Shown here: piece by piece, positions 17,988 through 32,533 of the stretch
Numbering within the stretch: position 1 is the stretch's first letter
How the letters are laid out: every line of letters starts with the position of its first letter
NCBI RefSeq assembly: GCF_000013365.1
Contig: NC_007778.1
Coordinates: 5,008,501-5,072,500 of the forward strand
From: Rhodopseudomonas palustris HaA2
GTDB taxonomy: Bacteria; Pseudomonadota; Alphaproteobacteria; Rhizobiales; Xanthobacteraceae
Reading direction: 5' to 3'
DNA: 64,000 bases
Translations under genes and position numbers: made by a program
The notes under the pieces: model-generated
The model's input: only the letters and a program-made list of their open reading frames with translations
Database searches by the model: none
What the model was told of the DNA's origin: nothing

Positions 17988-18284
17988 ATGCCCATTCTCA
18001 CCGACAGCTCCGTTGCGTCCGACTGGATCGAGCCCGACGAGGTCACGCGCCCGGTCGTCACCTATGGCATGGCGTCGAACAGGGTCGGTTCGTTCGAGAT
18101 CGACATGCACTGCCATACCAAAGCGCAGGCGACTGTTGCGTATCGGACGACTGCCGACTTTCTTCCGCCAACGCAACGCGACAATCCATTACGCCACCAC
18201 CAGTTCAACTCATCCAACAGGTCGGGCCCGCGTGCGCGATCAGCGCACGCTCAACCCGTCACGCCGCCCAATCGGTCACCATAA
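17988..18284 (+). pseudogene. Truncated AraC-type regulator (N-terminal cupin part only)
   Basis: The first ~47 residues (SDWIEPDEVTRPVVTYGMAS, then VGSFEIDMHCHTKAQ) look like the start of the cupin sensor domain of AraC-family regulators, with a His-x-His metal-type motif. After about 18130 the similarity stops and the remaining 50 residues are low complexity and unrelated. No helix-turn-helix domain is present. The open frame also overlaps the vapC end on the other strand. I read it as the 5' stub of a deleted regulator that faced the methyltransferase pseudogene. Confidence 0.55.
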
Positions 18285-18663
18285 GCCCGGGCACGCGTTC
18301 GAACTCCCGCCGGTTGGCGGTGACCAGGATCGCGCCGCGGGCGCGCGCCTGCGCGGCGATGAGCACATCATAGAAACCGATCGGCACGCCTTGCACCTCG
18401 AGATTGGCCCGGATGTCGCCCGCCTCGGCTGCATCCTCCTCGCCGAACGGCAGAATGGTGACTCCGGGCGCGAGAAACTCACCCAGCAAGGCCTCCATCT
18501 GTACCCGCCGATGACTCTTGGCGTAGCCATAGCGCAATTCGAACAGCGCGATCACCGGCAAGGCGACGGGCACAACGCCGATGGTTTCCCGAAATCGCGC
18601 TTCTAGTTGGGGGGCACGGCCATTGATGATGCCGATGACAACATTCGTATCGAGGCAGATCAT
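18259..18663 (-). CDS. vapC: PIN-domain toxin of a VapBC pair
   Basis: This 134-residue PIN ribonuclease starts MICLDTNVVIGIING, with the first catalytic Asp at position 5. Further acidic residues lie in ALFELRYGYA (Glu near 44) and in GFYDVLIAAQA (Asp near 99), with the C-terminal ILVTANRREFERVPGL typical of VapC. It would cleave specific RNAs when freed from its antitoxin. The start is two bases after the vapB stop. Length and motifs are intact, so it is probably functional despite the decayed surroundings. Confidence 0.9.
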   Translation of the reverse strand: MICLDTNVVIGIINGRAPQLEARFRETIGVVPVALPVIALFELRYGYAKSHRRVQMEALLGEFLAPGVTILPFGEEDAAEAGDIRANLEVQGVPIGFYDVLIAAQARARGAILVTANRREFERVPGLMVTDWAA

Positions 18664-18665
18664 AC

Positions 18666-18986
18666 TCAATCGATCCCGAAATCTTCGGGCTGGACCGACG
18701 GATCGTCCGGCATGCCATCGGCGAGGAAATCTCGCGCGCCGAGTGCATCCAGCCGCGCGCGCCAAGCGGCGTAATCGAACGGTTTCTTCTCCATCGGCTC
18801 CAGGATCACCTTGTCGCCGACCCGGCGGACGCGCACCTCGGTGCCCTCGAAGCGGAACTCCTTGGGCAGCCGCACGGCCTGGCTGCGGCCATGCATGAAA
18901 AGCTTCGCGGTCGCCGGCGCGTCCGGTCCGGGCGCTCCCTTGGCGTTGCGACGTGCAGTGCCGGACTTGCTGGCGGGTGAAGACAT
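18666..18986 (-). CDS. vapB: AbrB/VapB-type antitoxin
   Basis: A 106-residue protein. The AbrB-like DNA-binding part ([19 protein letters not shown], residues about 26-45) is followed by a C-terminal toxin-binding tail rich in acidic and aromatic residues. The N-terminal 25 residues are an extra, low-complexity extension; a later start is possible. It would neutralise VapC and repress its own operon. Confidence 0.88.
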
Positions 18987-19024
18987 CGGCGGCCCTCAAG
19001 ATTGGTATTCACCATTGATATCTA

Positions 19025-20136: not shown

Positions 20137-20292
20137 ATGGCAGAAGATCTGAACAAGGTTTGGCCGACCGGCCTGACGATCGCGGAGTCGGAAGAACTCC
20201 ACAAGCACGTGATCGACGGAACGCGCGTGTTCGGCGCGATCGCGATCATCGCTCACTTCCTGGCGTATGTTTATTCGCCCTGGCTGCACTGA
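20137..20292 (+). CDS. pucB: LH2-type light-harvesting beta polypeptide, copy 1
   Basis: A 51-residue single-span membrane protein beginning [20 protein letters not shown], with the membrane helix around residues 25-46. His40 ([14 protein letters not shown]) is the expected axial ligand of the B850-type bacteriochlorophyll, and His22 and His24 are also present. With PucA it forms the ring antenna in the intracytoplasmic membrane. It differs from copy 2 (24784-24939) at only about four positions. Twelve bases separate it from pucA, the same spacing as in copy 2. Confidence 0.95.
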
Positions 20293-20304
20293 GGAGTATC
20301 GATC

Positions 20305-20502
20305 ATGAATCAAGGTAAACTCTGGACCGTCGTCAATCCCACCGTCGGCCTGCCGCTGCTTCTCGGCGGCGTGGCGACCATGGCGTTTCTCGTGCACTTC
20401 GCCGTGCTCCAAAACACGACTTGGGTGTCGGCGTTCATGAACGGCAAGGTCGTCGCGGCTGCGCCGGCCCCCGCCGCTCCCGCGGCCCCCGCCAAGAAGT
20501 AG
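20305..20502 (+). CDS. pucA: LH2-type light-harvesting alpha polypeptide, copy 1 (blue-shifted type)
   Basis: This 65-residue protein starts [20 protein letters not shown]. His31 in the membrane helix is the bacteriochlorophyll ligand. Positions 44-45, which are Tyr-Trp in B800-850 complexes and donate hydrogen bonds to the pigment, are Phe-Met here ([11 protein letters not shown]). Loss of these bonds shifts absorption to the blue, as in LH3/LH4-type low-light antennae. The C-terminus carries an Ala/Pro-rich tail ending AKK that copy 2 lacks. Confidence 0.95.
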
Positions 20503-20806: not shown

Positions 20807-21325
20807 ATGGATGGTCGAACAACACCCCGCCTGCGCGTCTTCCTGGCCGACGACCACCCGCTCGTGCTCCGCGGCATGAAGATGCTGATCGGGAACGACG
20901 CCGGCCTGGAACTCGTCGGCGACGCCTCCGACGGACCGAGCGCACTCCAGCGCGCGATCGAATTGAAGCCGGATGTCGCGGTCCTCGACCTGTGGATGCC
21001 GGGTCTCAGAGGGCTGGATGTCGCCCGCCAGTTTCTGTCGATCTGCCCGACATCCCGCGTGCTGGTGCTGACGGTCCACGAAGACGCGGCCTATCTGCGC
21101 AAGGTCCTGCAATGTGGCGTGACCGGCTACATTCTCAAACGCTCGGCGACCGACGAGCTCGCTCGCGGCATCCACGCGGTGGCGGCCGGAGGTCTTTATC
21201 TGGATCCGCACTTCCTGGCCGACAGGACCGACGGGGAGTTGATTCTCCGGCAGTCGGCCCGGCGGGTGGGACTCAACCTCTTCATCGAGACCGTCGACAA
21301 TCTGAAGCGGAACAGCATCCACTAG
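20807..21325 (+). CDS. NarL-type response regulator missing its DNA-binding domain
   Basis: A 172-residue protein. The receiver domain (LRVFLADDHPLVLRGMKML; phospho-acceptor Asp in VAVLDLWMPG near residue 62; TGYILKRSATDEL near 115) closely parallels the full-length regulator at 25440-26132. After HAVAAGGLYLDPHF the similarity ends and the last ~35 residues have no LuxR helix-turn-helix. No remnant of that domain is seen in the following 250 bp. The receiver residues are intact, so it could still be phosphorylated and act as a phosphate sink, or it may be a decaying duplicate. It follows pucBA copy 1. Confidence 0.8.
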   Translation: MDGRTTPRLRVFLADDHPLVLRGMKMLIGNDAGLELVGDASDGPSALQRAIELKPDVAVLDLWMPGLRGLDVARQFLSICPTSRVLVLTVHEDAAYLRKVLQCGVTGYILKRSATDELARGIHAVAAGGLYLDPHFLADRTDGELILRQSARRVGLNLFIETVDNLKRNSIH

Positions 21326-21571: not shown

Positions 21572-22009
21572 TTACTTCAAGAGTGTCGGCAGACCGAACA
21601 GCGACGAGAACGGTGTCGGCCGGTCGATCAGCAGGGGGCGGCCCGAGAACGACCGATAGGCCCCCTTCTGCTGGAGGATCAGCGGCGTTCCGGACATCGA
21701 CTTGTAGAGTCCGGAAGTTCCGATGAGGAGCGGCATTCCCGAGAACGATCGATAGGCCCCGTTCTGGCTCAGAAGCAGGGGTGTTCCCGAGAACGATCTG
21801 TACGGTCCGGTCGTATTGATCAGCAGCGGCGTCCCCGAGAACGAATAGTACGATTTCAGGGCCGGGAGCAGGATCAGCGAGCCGGAATACGAATGGTACT
21901 CGCCTTTCTGCGCGATGATCAGCGGGGTTCCGGAATACGATTGATAGGAGCCCGACGTGTTCAGGAGCAACGGCGTTCCGGAGAGCGATCGATATTGTTC
22001 GTTCGACAT
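21572..22009 (-). CDS. 16-residue-repeat protein 1 (candidate LH2 gamma-type ribbon subunit), nine units
   Basis: A 145-residue protein that is almost entirely repeat. Eight units of exactly 16 residues start at Tyr6, with consensus Y-x-S-[FYLM]-S-G-T-P-L-L-[LI]-x-x-x-G-x. A degenerate last unit, FSSLFGLPTLLK, follows at 134-145. There is no signal peptide and no membrane helix; hydrophobic LLL patches alternate with polar turns every 16 residues, as expected for a strand undulating along a surface. AAGGAAG lies just before ATG 22009. It is the last gene of a pucB-pucA-pucC-repeat protein operon. R. palustris LH2 is known to carry a ribbon-like gamma chain following the ring; this protein is a good candidate for that family, but I cannot check identity. 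Confidence 0.8.
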   Translation of the reverse strand: MSNEQYRSLSGTPLLLNTSGSYQSYSGTPLIIAQKGEYHSYSGSLILLPALKSYYSFSGTPLLINTTGPYRSFSGTPLLLSQNGAYRSFSGMPLLIGTSGLYKSMSGTPLILQQKGAYRSFSGRPLLIDRPTPFSSLFGLPTLLK

Positions 22010-22064
22010 CGAACTTCCTTTCGGCGAACGGCTGTGGCCATCCGCCTGTGATGGGGACGGTCCA

Positions 22065-22271
22065 CTAGTCCCAGAGATTGAGCAGCAGCGGATAGCCGGA
22101 GAACGACTTGTACTCGCCTTCCTGCTTCAGCAGCAGCGGCATGCCGGAGAACGACTGGTATTCGCCCTCCTGCTTCAGCAGCAGCGGCGTGCCGGAGAAG
22201 CTCTGGTACTCGCCCTTCTGCTCGAGAATCAGCGGCGTGCCGGAGTGTCCTTTGTATTCGCTCATGGTCAA
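22065..22271 (-). CDS. 16-residue-repeat protein 2 (candidate LH2 gamma-type ribbon subunit), four units
   Basis: This 68-residue protein consists of MSE followed by four 16-residue units (YKGHSGTPLILEQKGE, YQSFSGTPLLLKQEGE and two more), ending NLWD without the terminal FSS-GLP unit of the two paralogues. The linkers are strongly charged (KQEGE), unlike the neutral linkers of protein 1. AAGGAA precedes the start. It starts six bases after the stop of repeat protein 3, so the genes are co-transcribed. It probably has the same type of role as its paralogues at a smaller size. Confidence 0.8.
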   Translation of the reverse strand: MTMSEYKGHSGTPLILEQKGEYQSFSGTPLLLKQEGEYQSFSGMPLLLKQEGEYKSFSGYPLLLNLWD

Positions 22272-22277
22272 ATTCCT

Positions 22278-22940
22278 TTACTTGGAGAGCACTGGCAGGC
22301 CCAGCCAGGAGGAGAAGATGGTCGGATTGTTGAGCAGCAGCGGCTCGCCCGAATAGGATTTGTACGGACCGCTGTCGTCCAGCAACAGAGGAGTCCCCGA
22401 GAAGGACTTGTAGGGACCGCTGCTGTCGAGCAGCAGCGGCGTTCCGGAAAACGACTGGTATGGGCCCTTGCTGCTGATCACAAGCGGCGTTCCGGAGAAC
22501 GTCTTGTCGCTGTCGACGAGCAGCCAGTCGCCGGAATAGGATTTGTACTTGCCCGAGGTGTCGAGCAGAGTCTTGGCGTGAATCATGTTGGAGAACGGCG
22601 TCGCTTCGCTCATCTCCATGGCGGCCGAGGCCGACGATTGCACGCTGATCTTGTTCGGACCGTAGCTGTCGAGGATCGTCGTCGCCTTGGCGGCGAAGCC
22701 GAATTCGGCCTGAACCGCGACCACGACGGCGCCCTTCTTGACGTAGTCGGCATAGGTCCGGGCGTCGCCGCGCGACACGTAAGCCCGGCCCATCGCCGCG
22801 ATGATGTCGTCCACCGAACTCGACTTGCCGGCCTGAGTGCCGGTGACGACGGCATATTTGTAGTTGTTCGTCTTCAGGTCGGTTTCCAACGCAGCGAGCT
22901 TGCTGCTGGAATCGTACAACCGGGTGACAATCTGGGTCAT
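22278..22940 (-). CDS. 16-residue-repeat protein 3, with an N-terminal GSP17M/YflT-like domain
   Basis: A 220-residue protein in two parts. Residues 1-115 (MTQIVTRLYDSSSKLAALET at the start, YADYVKKGAVVVAVQAEFGF in the middle, then an AKATTILDSYGP end) resemble the small alpha/beta domain of general stress protein 17M/YflT; this match is by eye. Residues 132-220 are six repeat units, the first two slightly shortened, ending FSSWLGLPVLSK as in protein 1. GGAG lies upstream of ATG 22940. The gene follows pucC by 43 bp. The extra domain may anchor or regulate the ribbon; function not known. Confidence 0.75.
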   Translation of the reverse strand: MTQIVTRLYDSSSKLAALETDLKTNNYKYAVVTGTQAGKSSSVDDIIAAMGRAYVSRGDARTYADYVKKGAVVVAVQAEFGFAAKATTILDSYGPNKISVQSSASAAMEMSEATPFSNMIHAKTLLDTSGKYKSYSGDWLLVDSDKTFSGTPLVISSKGPYQSFSGTPLLLDSSGPYKSFSGTPLLLDDSGPYKSYSGEPLLLNNPTIFSSWLGLPVLSK

Positions 22941-22983: not shown

Positions 22984-24405
22984 TCAGTTCAGTTGTCCCT
23001 GCATCAACAATGTGTCCCGTCGCTTGATCAGCGGGACCATCGTCACGAGCGTCGCCAGCAACAGCAGCAGCTCGAGGCCGTAGACGGCGTTGTAGCCGGC
23101 GGCCGGGCCGAACTGCGGAGCGAACGCCGTCACGACATCCCGGATGATGCCGCCCAGCGCGATCGCCACGCCGGCCGCGGAGGCCTGCACCGCGCCCCAG
23201 GCGCCGAGCGCGAGGCCGGCCTGGTCCTTCGGCGCGGCGTTCATCGTCGCGGTCAGCGTGCCGTGGCCGAACAGGCCGGCGCCGAAGCCGATCAGCGCGG
23301 TACCGCAGCCGAATGTCAGCACCGACGCGGCGCCCTGCAGTTCGGCGGCGAAGATCACCGCGAGGAAGGCCGGGATTCCGACCAGCGAGCCGAAGCTCGC
23401 CATCCGGAACGGATCGGCGCCGCGGCTCAGCACCCGCGAGGCGAGGCCGAAGCCGAGCAGACCGCCGACCGCGAGCGCCGCGGTGAGCTTGGTGGTGTCG
23501 CCGACCGACATCGACAGGATCTGGCCGCCATAGGGTTCGAGCAGCACGTCCGCCATGCTGAACGCCATGGTGCCGAAGCCGACCGCGATCAGCCGGCGCA
23601 TCGCGTCCTTGCCCTGGATGAAGACGTCCCAGGATTCGCGGAAGCTCGCGGAGGGCGCGCCGGGATGCGCGGTCGCCTGCGTCGCGCCGGAGGTGCGCCG
23701 CGCTTCCTGCTTCCAGACGGCGATGCCGTTGAGAACGATGGTGACGACGGCCGAGCCCTGGATCACCTGAATCAGGCGGCCGGGCGAAAAATCAGCGAGC
23801 AGCATGCCGAACACGATCGCCGCGGCGATCATGCCGAACATCAGCATGGTGTACATCAGGCCGACGACCTTCGGCCGCGATTCCGGCGAGGCGAGGTCGG
23901 TGGCGAGCGCGAGGCCGACGGTCTGGGTGGTGTGCACGCCGGCGCCGATCAGCAGGAACGCCAGCGCCGCGCCGAATTGTCCGATCCACACCGGGGCGTT
24001 GCCCGCATCGCCGCTGCCGGACAGCACCAGGAGCGCGAACGGCAGGATCGCCAGGCCGCCAAATTGCACCAGCGTGCCCTTATAGAGGAAGGGAACGCGG
24101 CGCCAGCCGAGCACGGATTTGTGGACGTCGGATTTGAAACCGATCAGCGCGCGGAACGGCGCAAACAGCAACGGCAGCGACACCATCACGCCGACGATCG
24201 AGGCCGGCACGTTGAGTTCGACGATCATCACGCGGTTCAAAGTGCCGACCAGCAGCACCAGCGACATGCCCACCGCCACCTGAAACAGCGACAGGCGCAG
24301 CAACCGCGACAGCGGCAGATCCGGCGTCGCCGCATCCGCGAACGGCAGAAAGCGAGACCCCAAGGAGGCCCACAGCTTCATCGCTTTTTGGCTGACGGGG
24401 TTCAT
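22984..24405 (-). CDS. pucC: PucC-family light-harvesting assembly protein (BCH transporter/MFS fold)
   Basis: A 473-residue protein with about twelve membrane helices of the PucC/LhaA family, required for assembly of LH2 antennae. The start MNPVSQKAMKLWASLG with FLPFADAATPDLPLSRLLRL is typical. GWRRVPFLYKGTLVQFGGLA and GVHTTQTVGLALATDLA are the characteristic conserved loops. ATG 24405 is chosen by family length although its ribosome binding site is poor; the frame is open to 24579. It lies between pucBA copy 2 and the repeat-protein genes, all on the same strand. Confidence 0.93.
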   Translation of the reverse strand: MNPVSQKAMKLWASLGSRFLPFADAATPDLPLSRLLRLSLFQVAVGMSLVLLVGTLNRVMIVELNVPASIVGVMVSLPLLFAPFRALIGFKSDVHKSVLGWRRVPFLYKGTLVQFGGLAILPFALLVLSGSGDAGNAPVWIGQFGAALAFLLIGAGVHTTQTVGLALATDLASPESRPKVVGLMYTMLMFGMIAAAIVFGMLLADFSPGRLIQVIQGSAVVTIVLNGIAVWKQEARRTSGATQATAHPGAPSASFRESWDVFIQGKDAMRRLIAVGFGTMAFSMADVLLEPYGGQILSMSVGDTTKLTAALAVGGLLGFGLASRVLSRGADPFRMASFGSLVGIPAFLAVIFAAELQGAASVLTFGCGTALIGFGAGLFGHGTLTATMNAAPKDQAGLALGAWGAVQASAAGVAIALGGIIRDVVTAFAPQFGPAAGYNAVYGLELLLLLATLVTMVPLIKRRDTLLMQGQLN

Positions 24406-24406
24406 C

Positions 24407-24434
24407 GTCTTGGGTCCAAAGTCTTGGGTCCAAA
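24407..24434 (-). repeat. 14-bp tandem direct repeat just before pucC
   Basis: Two exact head-to-tail copies of GTCTTGGGTCCAAA (24407-24420, 24421-24434) directly upstream of the pucC start codon. They occupy the place of the ribosome binding site. This could be a recent slippage duplication, and it may lower pucC translation relative to pucBA. Confidence 0.7.
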
Positions 24435-24542
24435 GCGGGGGACAGGGATGGTCGACACTGTCTCCGATACAAACTCGCCGCCGCGCTCTCCGGCATGCGA
24501 GGGGCGGTCCGGCTTCTCTGCCGGCTCCGCCGCTGGACAACC

Positions 24543-24566
24543 GGCCGGGACCCATGGGTCCCGGCC
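24543..24566. terminator. Perfect 24-bp palindrome between pucA copy 2 and pucC
   Basis: The first 12 bases (GGCCGGGACCCA) are followed directly by their complement. It lies 25 bp after the pucA stop in the direction of transcription. Hairpins here stabilise pucBA mRNA and attenuate pucC in other purple bacteria, giving more antenna polypeptide than assembly factor. Confidence 0.65.
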
Positions 24567-24591
24567 AGCCGAACAGCAACAGACGCTGTTA

Positions 24592-24771
24592 TCAGCCGAT
24601 GGAGATCGAGCTCTCGATCGCCGCGGTCTTGCCGTTCATGAACTTCGCGACCCAGGTGGTGTGGGTGAGGACGGCGAAGTGAACCAGCACAACCATCACG
24701 GCAACGCTGCCGAGCAGCAGGGGAAGGCCGACGGTCGGCTTGACCACAGTCCAGATTCTACCTTGATTCAT
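24592..24771 (-). CDS. pucA: LH2-type light-harvesting alpha polypeptide, copy 2 (blue-shifted type)
   Basis: This 59-residue protein starts [20 protein letters not shown], with His31 as the pigment ligand and Phe44-Met45 ([11 protein letters not shown]) in place of the Tyr-Trp pair of red-absorbing LH2. It differs from copy 1 mainly in the helix ([12 protein letters not shown]) and in a short C-terminus ending SISIG. Twelve bases separate it from pucB. The neighbouring bacteriophytochromes match the arrangement known for the R. palustris pucBAd (LH4) locus. Confidence 0.95.
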
Positions 24772-24783
24772 TGTCGATACTCC

Positions 24784-24939
24784 TTATTTCAGCCAGGGCG
24801 AGTAAACATACGCCAGGAAGTGCGCGACGATCGCGATCGCGCCGAAGATGCGCGTACCGTCGATGACGTGCTTGTGGAGTTCTTCCGACTCCGCGATCGT
24901 CAGGCCAGTCGGCCAGACCTTGTTGGGATCGTCTGCCAT
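24784..24939 (-). CDS. pucB: LH2-type light-harvesting beta polypeptide, copy 2
   Basis: A 51-residue protein beginning [20 protein letters not shown], with one membrane helix and His40 as the B850-type pigment ligand. It is nearly the same as copy 1; changes include the first residues, two Val/Ile exchanges and a C-terminal Lys for His. AGGAGG (24947-24952 read on the minus strand) is a strong ribosome binding site. First gene of the operon pucB-pucA-pucC-repeat proteins 3, 2 and 1. Confidence 0.95.
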
Positions 24940-25439: not shown

Positions 25440-26132
25440 ATGGACGCGAAATCACCGAACCCACCCCATGGCTCACGTTTGCGGATCTTTCTCGCCGACG
25501 ATCATCCGATTGTTCTGAGTGGGATGAAGATGCTCGTCGCCGAAGATCCCGAACTCGAGCTGGTCGGCGAGGCCAATGACGGACCCAAGGCGCTGCGGCG
25601 CGCCATCGAGCTGAGGCCCGACGTCGCGGTGTTCGATCTGTCGATGCCGGGCATGAACGGAATTGACGTCACCGAGAAGTACCTCGAGGCGCAGCCGAAG
25701 GCGCGCGTGCTCGTCCTATCGGTGCACGAGGATGGTGCTTATCTGCGGCGGCTGCTCAAAATGGGCGTCGGCGGCTACATCCTCAAGCGCTCGGCGACCG
25801 ACGAACTGATCCGCGGCATCCACGCCGTCGCAGCCGGCGGGTTGTATCTCGATCCGGCGATCGCGGGGCGCGCCATCGGTCGGGGCGTCCAGCAGGTGTC
25901 CATCGACAGCGAAACCAGCCCGATCTCGGAGCTCAGCACCCGCGAGCTGGAAGTCCTGCGGCTGGCCTCTGTCGGCCACAGCAACAAGGTGATCTCCGCC
26001 AAACTCCAGGTCGGTTCCAAGAGCGTCGAGACCTACAAGGCGCGCGCCATGGACAAACTCGGTTTCACCAACCGGGTCGAGTTGATCCGCTTCGCTCTCA
26101 GCATGGGCTGGCTGGAGAGCGCGGAGCCGTGA
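25440..26132 (+). CDS. NarL/FixJ-type response regulator
   Basis: A 230-residue protein. The receiver domain (LRIFLADDHPIVLSGMKML; Asp in VAVFDLSMPG near residue 65; GGYILKRSATDEL) is followed by a LuxR-type helix-turn-helix (STRELEVLRLASVGHSNKVI, then KSVETYKARAMDKLGF). It is complete, unlike its paralogue at 20807. It is divergent from pucB copy 2 and upstream of the two bacteriophytochromes, so it is the probable DNA-binding output of that light-sensing cascade, acting on one or both pucBA promoters. Confidence 0.9.
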   Translation: MDAKSPNPPHGSRLRIFLADDHPIVLSGMKMLVAEDPELELVGEANDGPKALRRAIELRPDVAVFDLSMPGMNGIDVTEKYLEAQPKARVLVLSVHEDGAYLRRLLKMGVGGYILKRSATDELIRGIHAVAAGGLYLDPAIAGRAIGRGVQQVSIDSETSPISELSTRELEVLRLASVGHSNKVISAKLQVGSKSVETYKARAMDKLGFTNRVELIRFALSMGWLESAEP

Positions 26133-26328: not shown

Positions 26329-28605
26329 ATGAATTCGGCTGCCGGTGACGTCGACCTGACGAACTGTGACCGCGAGCCGATACACATTCCCGGGTCCATC
26401 CAGCCGCATGGACTATTGATCGCGTTCAACGATGATCTGCGGGCGGTTGCCGTCAGTTCCAACATCGCGACCTTCGCCGACCTCGGCCCGGACGATCTGC
26501 TCGGCAGATCGCTCGCCGAGGCACTCGACGCCGACAGCCAGGCGCGGCTCCGCAGCGCCATGCGTGAGCCGGTCGATGCCAGCGGTTCGCCGGTCGCCAT
26601 CCGGCTGCGCCGGCGCGACGCCGAGTTCACCGGCCTCTGGCATCGCCACGGCGGGTTGACGTTTCTCGAACTCGAAGTACCACGGCACGAGGCGGCGGAG
26701 TCGCACGCGTTCTTCTGCCGGACCAGCGGCGCGATCAAGCGCCTGCAGGCGGCGCAGAGCCTGGAAGGCGCCTGCAGCGCTGCGGCGCGCGAAGTGCGCG
26801 AGATCACCGAATTCGATCGGGTCAAGATCTACCGCTTCGCGCCCGACTTCAGCGGCGAAGTGATCGCGGAGGACCGTACCGAAGGCGTCGAGTCGTTTCT
26901 CGGGCTGCACTTTCCGCCGTCGGATATCCCGGCGCAGGCGCGCAGGCTCTACGCCACCAATCCGATCCGGATCATTCCCGATATCGACTACATCCCCGTT
27001 CCGATCGTGCCCGGCCACGATCCGTCCACCGGGCAGGCGATCGATCTGAGTTTTGCCGTGCTGCGGAGCGTTTCGCCGATCCATCTCGAATATATGCGCA
27101 ATATCGGCATGCGCGGCACGATGTCGGTCTCGATCCTCCGCGGCGACAAGCTGTGGGGGCTGATCGCGTGCCACAACCGGCAGCCGCGCTACGTCGGCCA
27201 CGACGCTCGCCAGGCTTGCGACATGGTCGCACAGGTGCTGGCATGGCAGGTCGGCGTGATGGAGGAGCAGGCTGCGACCCGCCAGACCCTGAAGGGAAAG
27301 GCGATCCAGCGCAGCCTGATCAGCGACATCGAACAATTGCACGACCATCGCGCGGGTCTGGTGCGCAACAGCGAAGCCCTGCTCGAATTGATGGGGGCGT
27401 CCGGCCTGTGCCTGTTCGGACGCGAAGGCATCACCTCGATCGGCCGCACGCCACCCGAAGCGGCGATCGAGATGCTGGCCGGTCTGGTCGGGCGCAATGA
27501 CAGCGCCGAGCTGTTCGCGACCGATCAGCTGTCCACCCTGTTTCCGGAGGCCAAAGCCTTCGCCGACGTCGCCAGCGGGGTGCTCGCCGTTCCGCTGTCG
27601 CGCACGACGCCGCGGCGGGTGATGCTGTGGTTTCGCCCGGAAGTGTCGCAGACCGTCTATTGGGCCGGCAATCCCGACAAATCGGTCAGGGCGGAGTCCG
27701 GGCGATTGCGGCCACGGACATCGTTCGTCGCCTGGACCGAGGAAACCAGCGGGCGCGCGTTGCCCTGGCAGCCGCATGAAATCGCGGCCGCGGTCGAGAT
27801 CAGGGATCTGGTCATCGACGTGATCCTGCGCAACACCGAGAAGCTCGAACGCGTGAACACTCAGCTCGCGCGCAGCAATGAAGAACTCGAGGCTTTCGCC
27901 AACGTGGCCTCGCACGACATCAAGGAGCCTCTGCGTCACATCGAGGCCTTCGCCGGACTGCTCGGCGAGTCGATCCGCGAGATGGGCGACGAGCGCCTCG
28001 GCCTGATGGTCAGCGGCATCGAAAAGTCGTCGCAGCGGCTGCGCATTCTGATCAACGACCTCGCCGAATTCTCGCAGCTCGGCCGCCGCTCCAAGCCGCT
28101 CGCACAGACGTCTTTGATGGAAGTCGCCCAGGACGTCGCCACCGATCTGCATCAGCGGATCGAAGAGGCGGCGGCGGTCGTGGGGATCGAACAGCTCCCG
28201 GTCGCGCAATGCGATCGCAACCAGATGCGGCAGGTTCTACAGAATCTGTTGTCGAACGCATTGAAGTATCGGCATCCCGGCCGACCCTGCCGAATTCGCG
28301 TGTACGCCGAGCAGCGCAGCGCGGAGGAGCCTCGCGGGGAGGTCGGCAGGGCGGCCGCCTCCACACGGATCTGCGTCAGCGACAACGGCATCGGCTTCGA
28401 CCCGAAATACGCCGAGCAGATCTTCGAGCCGTTTCAGCGTCTCCATGGCCCCGACGACTACGAGGGCAGCGGCATCGGGCTCGCGATCTGCCGCAAGATC
28501 GTGCAGCGGCACGGAGGCCAGGTCGGCGTCGACACGATCCCCGGTTCTGGCTCCACCTTCTGGTTCACGCTGCCGATTGCGGTCGCCCTGTCGGCCACGC
28601 CTTGA
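26329..28605 (+). CDS. bphP2: Bacteriophytochrome histidine kinase, classical type (RpBphP2-like)
   Basis: A 758-residue protein in the order PAS-GAF-PHY-histidine kinase. Cys13 in DLTNCDREPIHIPGSIQPHG is the biliverdin attachment residue. The GAF pocket contains FPPSDIPAQA, and the PHY tongue has the canonical PRTSF motif. The kinase has the phospho-acceptor His in VASHDIKEPLRHIEAF, N box NLLSNALKYR and G boxes DNGIGFD and GSGIGLAI. The canonical tongue predicts a normal red/far-red (Pr/Pfr) photocycle. I start at ATG 26329, because the 45 residues encoded upstream look non-coding. In R. palustris the equivalent tandem pair controls LH4 synthesis, which fits the adjacent puc genes. Confidence 0.9.
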   Translation: MNSAAGDVDLTNCDREPIHIPGSIQPHGLLIAFNDDLRAVAVSSNIATFADLGPDDLLGRSLAEALDADSQARLRSAMREPVDASGSPVAIRLRRRDAEFTGLWHRHGGLTFLELEVPRHEAAESHAFFCRTSGAIKRLQAAQSLEGACSAAAREVREITEFDRVKIYRFAPDFSGEVIAEDRTEGVESFLGLHFPPSDIPAQARRLYATNPIRIIPDIDYIPVPIVPGHDPSTGQAIDLSFAVLRSVSPIHLEYMRNIGMRGTMSVSILRGDKLWGLIACHNRQPRYVGHDARQACDMVAQVLAWQVGVMEEQAATRQTLKGKAIQRSLISDIEQLHDHRAGLVRNSEALLELMGASGLCLFGREGITSIGRTPPEAAIEMLAGLVGRNDSAELFATDQLSTLFPEAKAFADVASGVLAVPLSRTTPRRVMLWFRPEVSQTVYWAGNPDKSVRAESGRLRPRTSFVAWTEETSGRALPWQPHEIAAAVEIRDLVIDVILRNTEKLERVNTQLARSNEELEAFANVASHDIKEPLRHIEAFAGLLGESIREMGDERLGLMVSGIEKSSQRLRILINDLAEFSQLGRRSKPLAQTSLMEVAQDVATDLHQRIEEAAAVVGIEQLPVAQCDRNQMRQVLQNLLSNALKYRHPGRPCRIRVYAEQRSAEEPRGEVGRAAASTRICVSDNGIGFDPKYAEQIFEPFQRLHGPDDYEGSGIGLAICRKIVQRHGGQVGVDTIPGSGSTFWFTLPIAVALSATP

Positions 28606-28618
28606 ACCGGACACCGCG

Positions 28619-30942
<2,324 letters not shown>

Positions 30943-30946
<4 letters not shown>

Positions 30947-31410
30947 ACCGGGATCCGATTTTGCCGACGGTGCTGGTCGCCGAGGACCACGACTACGACA
31001 AGCTGATCCTGACCGAAGTGTTCGGTCGAGCCGGCATCAAGGCGGATATCCGATTCGTCAGTGACGGCGAGCAGATGCTCGACTATCTCAAGCGCCGCCA
31101 CCACTACGCCGAGGAGGGCTCGGCGCCGACGCCGACGCTGATCCTGCTCGACCTCAACATGCCGCGGTTGGACGGGCGCAAGGTGATCCGCATCCTGCGC
31201 GCCGACGAGGCTATTCGCCATCTGCCGGTGATCGCGCTGTCCACCTCGGAGAGCCCGAAGCACATCACCGAGGCCTACTCGATTGGGATCAACGCCTACC
31301 TCGTCAAGCCGGCCAGTATCCCCGACTACGTCTCCGCGATCGAATCGCTCTGGCAATTCTGGATGAAGACTGCGTCTCTGCCGATGACGGAGAGGTTCGG
31401 CCATGAGTAG
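30943..31410 (+). CDS. Single-domain response regulator (phytochrome-associated receiver)
   Basis: A 155-residue receiver-only protein of the Rcp1/CheY-like type that commonly partners phytochrome kinases. Acidic pocket residues are in VLVAEDHDYDK, the phospho-acceptor Asp is in LILLDLNMPRLDGRK near residue 69, and the conserved Lys is in AYLVKPASI. There is no output domain. It likely shuttles phosphate from the phytochromes to the next kinase or to the NarL-type regulator. ATGA overlap with bphP3 and an eight-base overlap with the next gene show a single translation unit. Confidence 0.88.
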
Positions 31411-32533
31411 GCTCGCGACCAGGATTCTGCTGGTCGACGACGCGCAGATTGAATGTCTCGCTTTCGAGCGCCAGTTACACAAGATTCCCTTCCACCGCCT
31501 GCAACTGGATTGGGTCTCGACCTATGCCGATGCGCTCGTGGCGTTCGATCGCGACCAGCACGATTTGTATTTCGTCGATTTCCGGCTCGGTCCGGACAAC
31601 GGCCTCGATCTCGTGCGTCGTGCACGAGTGAACGGAATGACGAAGCCGATCATCGTGTTGACCGGCCACGGCAGCGCGGCGGTCGACAAGGCGGCGACCG
31701 ACGCTGGCGCCAACGATTATCTGGTGAAGGGGGAGTTCGACGCGGTGCTGCTCGAGCGGTCGATTCGTTATGCCTCGCGCAACGCCGACGCGCTTGCGGA
31801 GGTGGGACGCCGCCTGGTCGAAAGCAGGGCGACCGCCCGCGAACTAATGGAGCAGACCAAGCGGCGCGCCGCCGCCGAGGCGGATGTTCTCCAGGTGCTC
31901 AGACAGACGATGACGGACCAGGAGGCCGAGCGTCAGCGGATTGCCCGGGAAATGCACGACAATCTCGGCCAGTCGGTAACGCTGGTTCAGCTCGGCCTCG
32001 ACTCGATCGCACGCAGCGCGTCGGCGCAGAGCGACATCGCGAGCAAGGCCGCGTCGTTGAAACGCATCACGCACGATATGAGTAGGAGCCTGCATCGGAT
32101 CGCCTGGGAGGTCCGCCCGACGGCGCTCGATGCACTCGGCCTGGAGGACGCGATCGGCCAGCTCGTCGCCGAGTGGGAGCCGCATTGCAGCCTGTGCTTC
32201 GATCTTCACTTCGGGCTCGGCGACCGGAGGTTGCCGCCTGATGTCGAAAGCGCCCTGTATCGCGTAATTCAGGAAGGCATCACCAACGTGGTGCGCCACG
32301 CAAAGGCGACCCGGGTCGGGGTGATCCTGGAGATGCGGGGCAACGAACTGATCTGCATCGTCGAAGACGATGGCTGCGGTGTGCCCGAGGTCGAGTCGGG
32401 CGTCGCTGAAAAAACGTCGCGTCGACTGGGCCTGCTGGGTATGCGCGAGCGGCTGGCTCTCGTCAATGGAACGGTCGAACTCGAATCTCATCCAGAAAAG
32501 GGCACGGCGGTGTTCGCGCGCGTGCCGCTCTAG
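31403..32533 (+). CDS. Hybrid protein: N-terminal receiver plus NarX-type histidine kinase
   Basis: A 376-residue protein. The receiver is residues about 5-120 (RILLVDDAQIECLAFE; Asp in LYFVDFRLGPDNG), a short coiled segment follows, then a HisKA_3 kinase with the His in IAREMHDNLGQSVTLVQ near residue 190 and ATPase boxes EGITNVVRHA, EDDGCG and GLLGMRERL. HisKA_3 kinases normally phosphorylate NarL/FixJ regulators, so the regulator at 25440 is its likely target. The receiver-first order suggests its kinase is controlled by phosphate from the phytochromes. It closes the light-sensing operon. Confidence 0.88.
   Translation: MSRLATRILLVDDAQIECLAFERQLHKIPFHRLQLDWVSTYADALVAFDRDQHDLYFVDFRLGPDNGLDLVRRARVNGMTKPIIVLTGHGSAAVDKAATDAGANDYLVKGEFDAVLLERSIRYASRNADALAEVGRRLVESRATARELMEQTKRRAAAEADVLQVLRQTMTDQEAERQRIAREMHDNLGQSVTLVQLGLDSIARSASAQSDIASKAASLKRITHDMSRSLHRIAWEVRPTALDALGLEDAIGQLVAEWEPHCSLCFDLHFGLGDRRLPPDVESALYRVIQEGITNVVRHAKATRVGVILEMRGNELICIVEDDGCGVPEVESGVAEKTSRRLGLLGMRERLALVNGTVELESHPEKGTAVFARVPL

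Follow-up and report, generated by a model that had tools for sequence, protein, structure and literature searches.

LH2-gamma-type proteins of unequal length in an LH4-type antenna operon of Rhodopseudomonas palustris HaA2, and their wider family

Does the operon of a low-light antenna encode one pigment-holding ribbon or several, and from which proteins could such ribbons have originated? The question is raised by a 64,000-nucleotide stretch of the genome of R. palustris HaA2 (hereafter the window), in which three consecutive genes for repeat proteins follow pucC. In Rhodobacter capsulatus PucE, the gamma protein of LH-II, is also encoded after pucC. The gamma chain of R. palustris LH2 is RPA1495 (UniProt Q6N9P5), an undulating ribbon that runs along six of the nine alpha/beta pairs (PMC9618040, Qian et al. 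2022). Each serine of its repeat EYKGHSGHPLIKQEG ligates the magnesium of a bacteriochlorophyll (BChl), and together the gamma serines hold six BChls, 27.6 Å apart on average (PMC9618040). The accessible part of that paper reports one clear candidate gamma gene with BLASTp matches in Rhodopseudomonas only, describes the six-unit chain as already wrapping PucD-LH2, a ring of LH4 type, and leaves open why gamma spans merely a part of the ring. It mentions no gamma paralogue, whereas the operon considered here has three of them.

These genes, for which we coined the names gammaL, gamma4 and gamma9, are open reading frames of the minus strand located directly 3' of pucC, in the order pucB-pucA-pucC-gammaL-gamma4-gamma9 (Table 1). 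The tandem arrangement after pucC, claimed in an earlier note on this DNA, was thus borne out, with neighbours identified by PF03209 and PF00556. Intergenic gaps from pucB onward are only 12, 12, 43, 12 and 55 nt, so that a single operon is likely. Since the alignment with many pucC homologues begins only around residue 58, the true start of this gene may be later than the listed one.

Table 1. Antenna, gamma-type and regulatory genes of the window (positions counted from its first nucleotide)
Feature	Position	Strand	Basis and remarks
Second pucB, convergent with the operon	20137..20292	+	PF00556, E 1.4e-9
Second pucA, likewise M26 F44 M45	20305..20502	+	PF00556, E 3e-12
gamma9, 145 aa	21572..22009	-	LH2-gamma homologue (7zcu_S, E 2.5e-29)
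gamma4, 66 aa from ATG	22065..22265	-	4 Ser-Gly units
gammaL, 220 aa	22278..22940	-	LH2-gamma homologue (7zcu_S, E 2.7e-28)
pucC	22984..24579	-	PF03209, E 1.4e-148; listed start TTG
pucA (LH alpha), M26 F44 M45, LH4 (pucAd) type	24592..24771	-	PF00556, E 1.3e-12
pucB (LH beta)	24784..24939	-	PF00556, E 9.4e-10
REC-HTH regulator, lhfA (rpa3014)-like	25440..26132	+	PF00072, PF00196
Bacteriophytochrome histidine kinase	26329..28605	+	PAS_2, GAF, PHY, HisKA, HATPase_c
Second bacteriophytochrome histidine kinase	28445..30946	+	Listed start overlaps the first; domains from about residue 88
REC + histidine kinase, lhfE-like by domain make-up and position	31403..32533	+	Compare PMC6879726 (accessible part)

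The window is an LH4-type (low-light) antenna locus with two bacteriophytochromes. Both of its pucA genes carry Met26, Phe44 and Met45, the LH4 signature by the residue rule given in the accessible text of PMC5069747. The neighbouring lhfA-like regulator, two bacteriophytochrome kinases and REC-kinase correspond in composition to the LH4 locus of strain CGA009, as described in the accessible part of PMC6879726, and the regulator shares 76% identity with the one beside pucBAd at locus L046. The alpha-d, beta-c and beta-d sequences of L046 are identical to those printed in the part of PMC9897067 at hand, and a relative of gammaL is the gene between its pucBAd and pucBAc. According to the accessible text of PMC6879726, low light raises the hypothetical protein rpa3011, encoded beside pucBAd, in at least 14 of 17 strains. 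Because synteny with L046 places a gammaL relative between pucBAd and pucBAc, rpa3011 of CGA009 is probably a gammaL-type gene, judged by position. The position beside pucBAd matches that of the gammaL relative of L046, yet no relation to gamma is stated in that text, and within the literature in reach, which excluded most subscription papers and all supplements, rpa3011 figured only there, as a hypothetical protein. A response regulator consisting of REC only, without HTH, is encoded at 20807-21325 (+) and occupies the same place in genome G002 and in R. pseudopalustris.

The best internal period is 16 residues in all three proteins (for gammaL, within residues 113-220). Identity at this period was 0.41 in gammaL, 0.70 in gamma4 and 0.43 in gamma9 and exceeded in each case the maximum of 2000 shuffles (0.26, 0.30 and 0.22, respectively), so that chance periodicity was rejected. 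The earlier note had taken all three for products made of repeat units with a strict period of 16, four, six and nine in number. For gamma4 and gamma9, where every Ser-Gly spacing equals 16, the strict period was confirmed, as was the count of four units in gamma4. For gammaL it had to be revised, since its residues 1 to ~112 are a separate domain without repeats and the first of its Ser-Gly spacings is 13, the rest being 16. The full layout of this protein is a YflT-like N-terminal domain (N-domain, ~1-112), an N-cap unit, five Ser-Gly units and a C-cap unit, with no serine before Gly in either cap. In gamma9 there are eight Ser-Gly units, and the ninth is a C-terminal cap (FSSLFGLPTLL) with another residue in place of the serine before Gly, so the presumed six and nine became five and eight, serine-free caps aside. 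A first spacing of 13 is also present in the gammaL of the other operons seen, except for the first operon of L038 and the form found at L046 and L047; in gammaL of L066 the first unit was missed by the search pattern.

Gamma9 is under purifying selection: simple counting gave dN/dS of 0.14-0.21 between three lineages, with dS of 0.87-1.49 and hence partly saturated. Its third unit retains SGSLILLP in three lineages and is followed by a deviant linker. The unit of the same index was the best match for five to eight of the nine gamma9 units and for two to five of the six units of gamma6, the six-unit gamma. Another unit spacing was noticed in R. faecalis and JSC-3b (L039, L040), where gamma and gammaL units mostly stand 13 residues apart (FFSGTPLLIDSNK) with a linker three residues shorter; at L064 a 13-residue spacing of the FFSGTPLLIDSNK type occurs in part.

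Kinship with the gamma ribbon of R. palustris LH2 had been supposed beforehand, and an unrelated gamma sequence would have spoken against it. Comparison with PDB sequences (phmmer) gave 7zcu_S for both gammaL (best stretch 146-204) and gamma9, with the E values of Table 1. Both are homologous to the gamma chain of entries 7zcu, 7zdi, 7ze3 and 7ze8, and units of gamma4 match gamma6 of the same genome (L043) and of G002 (L044). Judged by these similarities, the three proteins are members of the LH2-gamma family. The sole serine of EYKGHSGHPLIKQEG is that before Gly, and precisely this serine is kept in the Ser-Gly units of the trio. Likeness to RPA1495 extends to the even 16-residue spacing of these serines, with the single 13-residue step of gammaL, and to encoding together with LH2 genes: the trio stands directly after pucB-pucA-pucC and RPA1495 after pucC and gammaL, as judged from L051. 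The known chain differs in having six units and no caps, whereas the trio comprises four units, eight units with a cap, and a globular domain with five units and two caps. None of the three has six units, and a separate six-unit gamma is encoded elsewhere in the genome (L043). A match of gamma9 to prostaglandin E synthase 2 in the PDB (E 0.13) was rejected as chance.

At L051 gamma is identical to Q6N9P5 and gammaL lies just upstream of it. The listing of RPA1496 as a monooxygenase would make RPA1494 the gammaL of CGA009; this name was not found in print, with most subscription papers and all supplements out of reach.

A search with gamma9 in 61 genomes gave matches at E ≤0.001 in 17, namely in every one of the 16 genus genomes, the own one among them, and in one of another genus. 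Full-length gamma9 was registered in four of the 61 (G000, G002, G006 and G020). Matches to the N-domain were found in 15 of the 16 genus genomes, the exception being G006, where contigs break inside gamma, and a gammaL scan of genome contigs yielded 12 loci, all of them in Rhodopseudomonas. Stand-alone Ser-Gly gammas were confined, within the searched set, to Rhodopseudomonas and two near genera (G020 and G088; G084). Twenty-two operons were then compared. Sixteen have an alpha polypeptide with Tyr44 and Trp45, and in each of these gammaL and then a gamma with six Ser-Gly units follow pucC; the stretches fetched for them contained gamma9 in no case (0/16). Gamma9 is present at four of the 22: in the window, in G002, at L038 and at L041. 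Their own pucA is visible at three, encoding Phe44 Met45 in the window and in G002 and Tyr44 Met45 at L038, the latter pair being classed in the accessible part of PMC5069747 as LH2' (800/840 nm), not LH4. At L041 the own pucA is off the contig, and the convergent pucA nearby is of the Phe44 Met45 type. Operons L046 and L047 are of LH4 type (Phe44 Met45) and have a gammaL relative without gamma9; pucC was not found in the stretches fetched for them. Thus, of the earlier supposition that different ribbons serve different rings, the part concerning gamma9 survived, as this gene was seen only at loci whose pucA, where in view, is not of the Tyr44 Trp45 type. The part concerning gamma4 was given up, since this protein resembles an ordinary gamma minus two units. 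Two whole tandem pucBAC-gammaL-gamma operons were observed at L038:1848-8959, one with Tyr44 Met45 and gamma9, the other with Tyr44 Trp45 and without it. Among plasmid records, PucC-family matches turned up in ten, all with identity under 60%, and LH2 beta in none.

The copies of the operon genes within one genome have not diverged uniformly. Low-light and high-light copies of gammaL share 97.3% of their DNA sequence in the own genome and 99.7% in G002, while between the two species the identity is 94.6% and 92.6%. At the protein level, the PucC encoded in the window shares 98.5% with the second copy in the same genome, against 94.1% with its counterpart in G002. The low-light and high-light pucA genes, in contrast, share 82.2% (own) and 82.8% (G002). 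Identity within genomes is therefore higher than between species for gammaL and for PucC of the window, which are kept alike, while pucA stays distinct; gammaL, and here also PucC, seem to be homogenised, and pucA and gamma9 seem to be specific. Gamma9 has no partner in the main operon; two of its loci, with gamma9 97.7% identical as DNA, are close relatives. Compared with gamma6 of G002, gamma4 is 99 nt shorter, which corresponds to two units (96 nt) and one Ala codon near the start of gamma6. Relative to the second gamma6 in the same genome, it lacks two units and is 90 nt shorter, its end being two codons longer. As six units are usual, we infer that gamma4 arose by loss of units rather than by gain, and the idea of three deliberate lengths was dropped for it.

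Profile searches with gammaL covered 397 genomes of the order, 385 of the class and 299 of the phylum, with a match cut of 1e-5 for order and class, and brought up relatives of full length well beyond the genus. In the order, 39 of 397 genomes matched, 15 of them strongly besides the own one (1.4e-17 or better), and all 15 strong matches adjoin pucB, pucA and pucC; the weaker ones mostly covered the N-domain only. In the class, 22 of 385 matched, with 10 strong besides the own genome (1.1e-14 or better), all 10 adjoining pucBA and nine of them also pucC. In the phylum 16 of 299 matched, and three of these, N-domain proteins from one family (f74), are encoded next to pucBAC and have other repeat types. 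Approached from the other side, a gammaL-like gene is present in 18 of 23 other order genomes with PucC at E <1e-170, a cut chosen after the list had been inspected, with two genomes (G480, G367) left out; 16 of the 18 were already among the profile matches of the order. It was not found nearby in G431, G325 and G382 (on a contig of 5.9 kb), which are PucC-bearing genomes of the order. Thus, the restriction of gamma to Rhodopseudomonas stated in the accessible part of PMC9618040 is not valid for the wider gammaL-like family.

Within the own family, the stretches of 3-17 kb fetched for relatives L065, L067, L068, L069, L073 and L116 were free of puc genes. L116 belongs to the own genome: at L116:4569-5093 (~924.6-925.1 kb) it encodes a gammaL-like paralogue of ~170 aa with a remnant of the N-domain and cap-type units, and the 10 kb fetched there contained no puc genes. 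At L063 (G174, another genus of the family) pucBAC is followed by a gammaL-like protein whose only units are caps, with a bacteriophytochrome kinase nearby. N-domain proteins with unlike long repeats are encoded at L122:6069-7178 (-) and L123:5490-6686 (+) (MANWPIPLISRRKP... and MAKFPFAHLVPGHK..., respectively), the former adjoining pucBAC; possibly their repeats are other types of ribbon.

By the search pattern, all 28 gammaL-like proteins from outside the own family lack an in-register Ser-Gly unit, and their Gly is mostly preceded by Leu, Phe, Met or Ile. Out-of-register Ser-Gly pairs do occur in the last 110 residues of 21 of these 28, and paralogues L065 and L067 of the own family have one in-register unit each; other pigment ligands and separate gains of serine are therefore possible. 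The best internal period was 16 or 32 in 16 of 29 gammaL-like proteins tested, for 13 of which it was matched by no more than 1% of 300 shuffles, and another period was best in the other 13 of the 29. In a tree of 46 rows, rooted by midpoint only, all 16 serine-bearing gammaL sequences form one group (support 100/98), and its sister is the set of six own-family paralogues listed above.

The N-domain has relatives of its own. Aligned by hhalign with four stress proteins from the same bacterial family, it gave a probability of 97.2 and E 3.7e-11, and two of these four (L070 and L071) passed the PF11181 cut-off over ~33 residues when scanned. The N-domain of gammaL had no PF11181 match at the Pfam gathering score, and the only match of this profile in the own genome, a weak one (E 0.206), is the gammaL-like paralogue at 924 kb. 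YflT (PF11181) stress proteins have a glycine-rich insert, whereas the N-domain of gammaL is without it and is joined to ribbon units. Neither Pfam nor NCBIfam offered a convincing name for the three proteins of the window or for 14 gammaL-like ones, and the best E among 11 N-domains in Pfam was 0.043. A Pribosyltran match in one gammaL-like member (E 0.0012) was judged to be chance. Against the PDB, the N-domain profile retrieved MacA (E 8) and, at E 9e-5 to 0.0028, designed proteins in which no individual stretch passed; all were rejected as compositional.

Based on these data, the explanation that we hold to be probable as a whole is a gamma family serving the LH4 operon, in which gamma9 would go round the ring, gammaL would be the older form and serine would be a later gain. 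A YflT-type stress-protein domain would have been joined to ribbon units, and the ancestral job of such a protein was probably to act with PucC in guiding or bracing the assembly of the LH2 ring, because serine-less relatives are encoded beside pucBA in many Alphaproteobacteria. In the Rhodopseudomonas group serine would then have replaced the residue before Gly, giving a BChl site; short stand-alone gammas may have arisen after this gain, gamma4 being a gamma short of two units, and the nine-unit gamma9 would have been added at low-light loci. By homology with the solved chain, the ribbon would run along the ring, each 16-residue unit corresponding to one alpha/beta pair. Having nine units (eight with serine and the cap), gamma9 could therefore span a nonameric ring completely, nine pairs instead of the six of the known gamma, and it would add up to eight B800 pigments; arithmetically, nine steps of 27.6 Å close a nonagon of ~40 Å radius. 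The bolder combination, namely that the gamma ribbon is a pigment-binding offshoot of a general LH2-operon protein of Alphaproteobacteria and that gamma9 closes the LH4 ring and supplies as many as eight further 800-nm pigments, is offered tentatively, at somewhat less than even chances. The preferred explanation is weakened by the small number of gamma9 loci, two of which are closely related, one is of the Tyr44 Met45 type classed as LH2' and one lacks its own pucA in view, as well as by L046 and L047, which are LH4-type and yet have no gamma9, by the six-unit gamma that already wraps a ring of LH4 type, and by the best match to the same-index unit in only five to eight of the nine gamma9 units. 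Both readings lose slightly in probability through the gammaL-like proteins with another best period and through the out-of-register Ser-Gly pairs.

Gamma9 and gamma4 may instead bind rings partially, as the known gamma does, the additional units of gamma9 being surplus or extending beyond the ring, for instance as a bridge to a neighbour. In favour of this are the coverage of just six of nine pairs by the known chain (accessible text of PMC9618040) and the deviant linker after unit 3, whose retention in three lineages could mark a bend or a crossing. Nine units, however, match the circumference of a nonamer and are a conserved departure from the usual six, and we regard partial binding as rather unlikely. 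It is still less expected, and in our estimate very improbable, that the additional copies are duplicates in decay, derived from the main pucBAC-gammaL-gamma operon and with no function of their own. The missing units of gamma4 and the near identity of gammaL and pucC to the main copy would agree with decay, but gamma9 is held by purifying selection, lacks an equivalent in the main operon and is retained in other lineages, and the near identity of gammaL copies arises separately in two genomes.

The most serious competitor concerns gammaL. It may be purely an assembly factor or chaperone of LH2 that never stays on the ring and whose repeats keep hold of nascent gamma or alpha/beta during the action of PucC, and the chances of this we put only a little short of even. 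It is in line with gammaL-like genes near pucC across lineages, with the separate globular domain and with mass spectrometry of purified palustris LH2 and low-light LH2, where the accessible passages of PMC9618040 and PMC9897067 name the short 97-residue gamma alone. As these passages omit gammaL, it may be an assembly factor only; naming of a single gamma fits such a role or loss on purification, not stoichiometric gammaL, and partly for this reason the ribbon role of gammaL is unproven. Five Ser-Gly pairs and two caps kept across the genus nevertheless look more like a pigment-binding ribbon. Finally, the N-domain might make gammaL a stress or signalling protein that shares repeats with gamma by coincidence. 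The kinship of this domain with YflT-type proteins, seen with hhalign and through L070 and L071, and the location of some family-level relatives away from puc genes could be read in this way, but strong matches of the order and class stand beside pucBA at 25 of 25 fetched loci, and we give this idea hardly any weight.

With natural gammas of four, six and eight-plus-cap units in one genome, ribbon length becomes a variable open to direct testing, and from its place at an LH4-type locus gamma9 is predicted to have a specific role in low light. The gammaL-like family suggests that a ribbon or assembly protein has been overlooked in many LH2 operons and offers a route for the origin of a pigment site, by change of the residue before Gly to Ser. 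Apart from the antenna genes, two small overlapping frames at 18259-18999 (-) of the window resemble, by eye only, a VapBC toxin-antitoxin pair.
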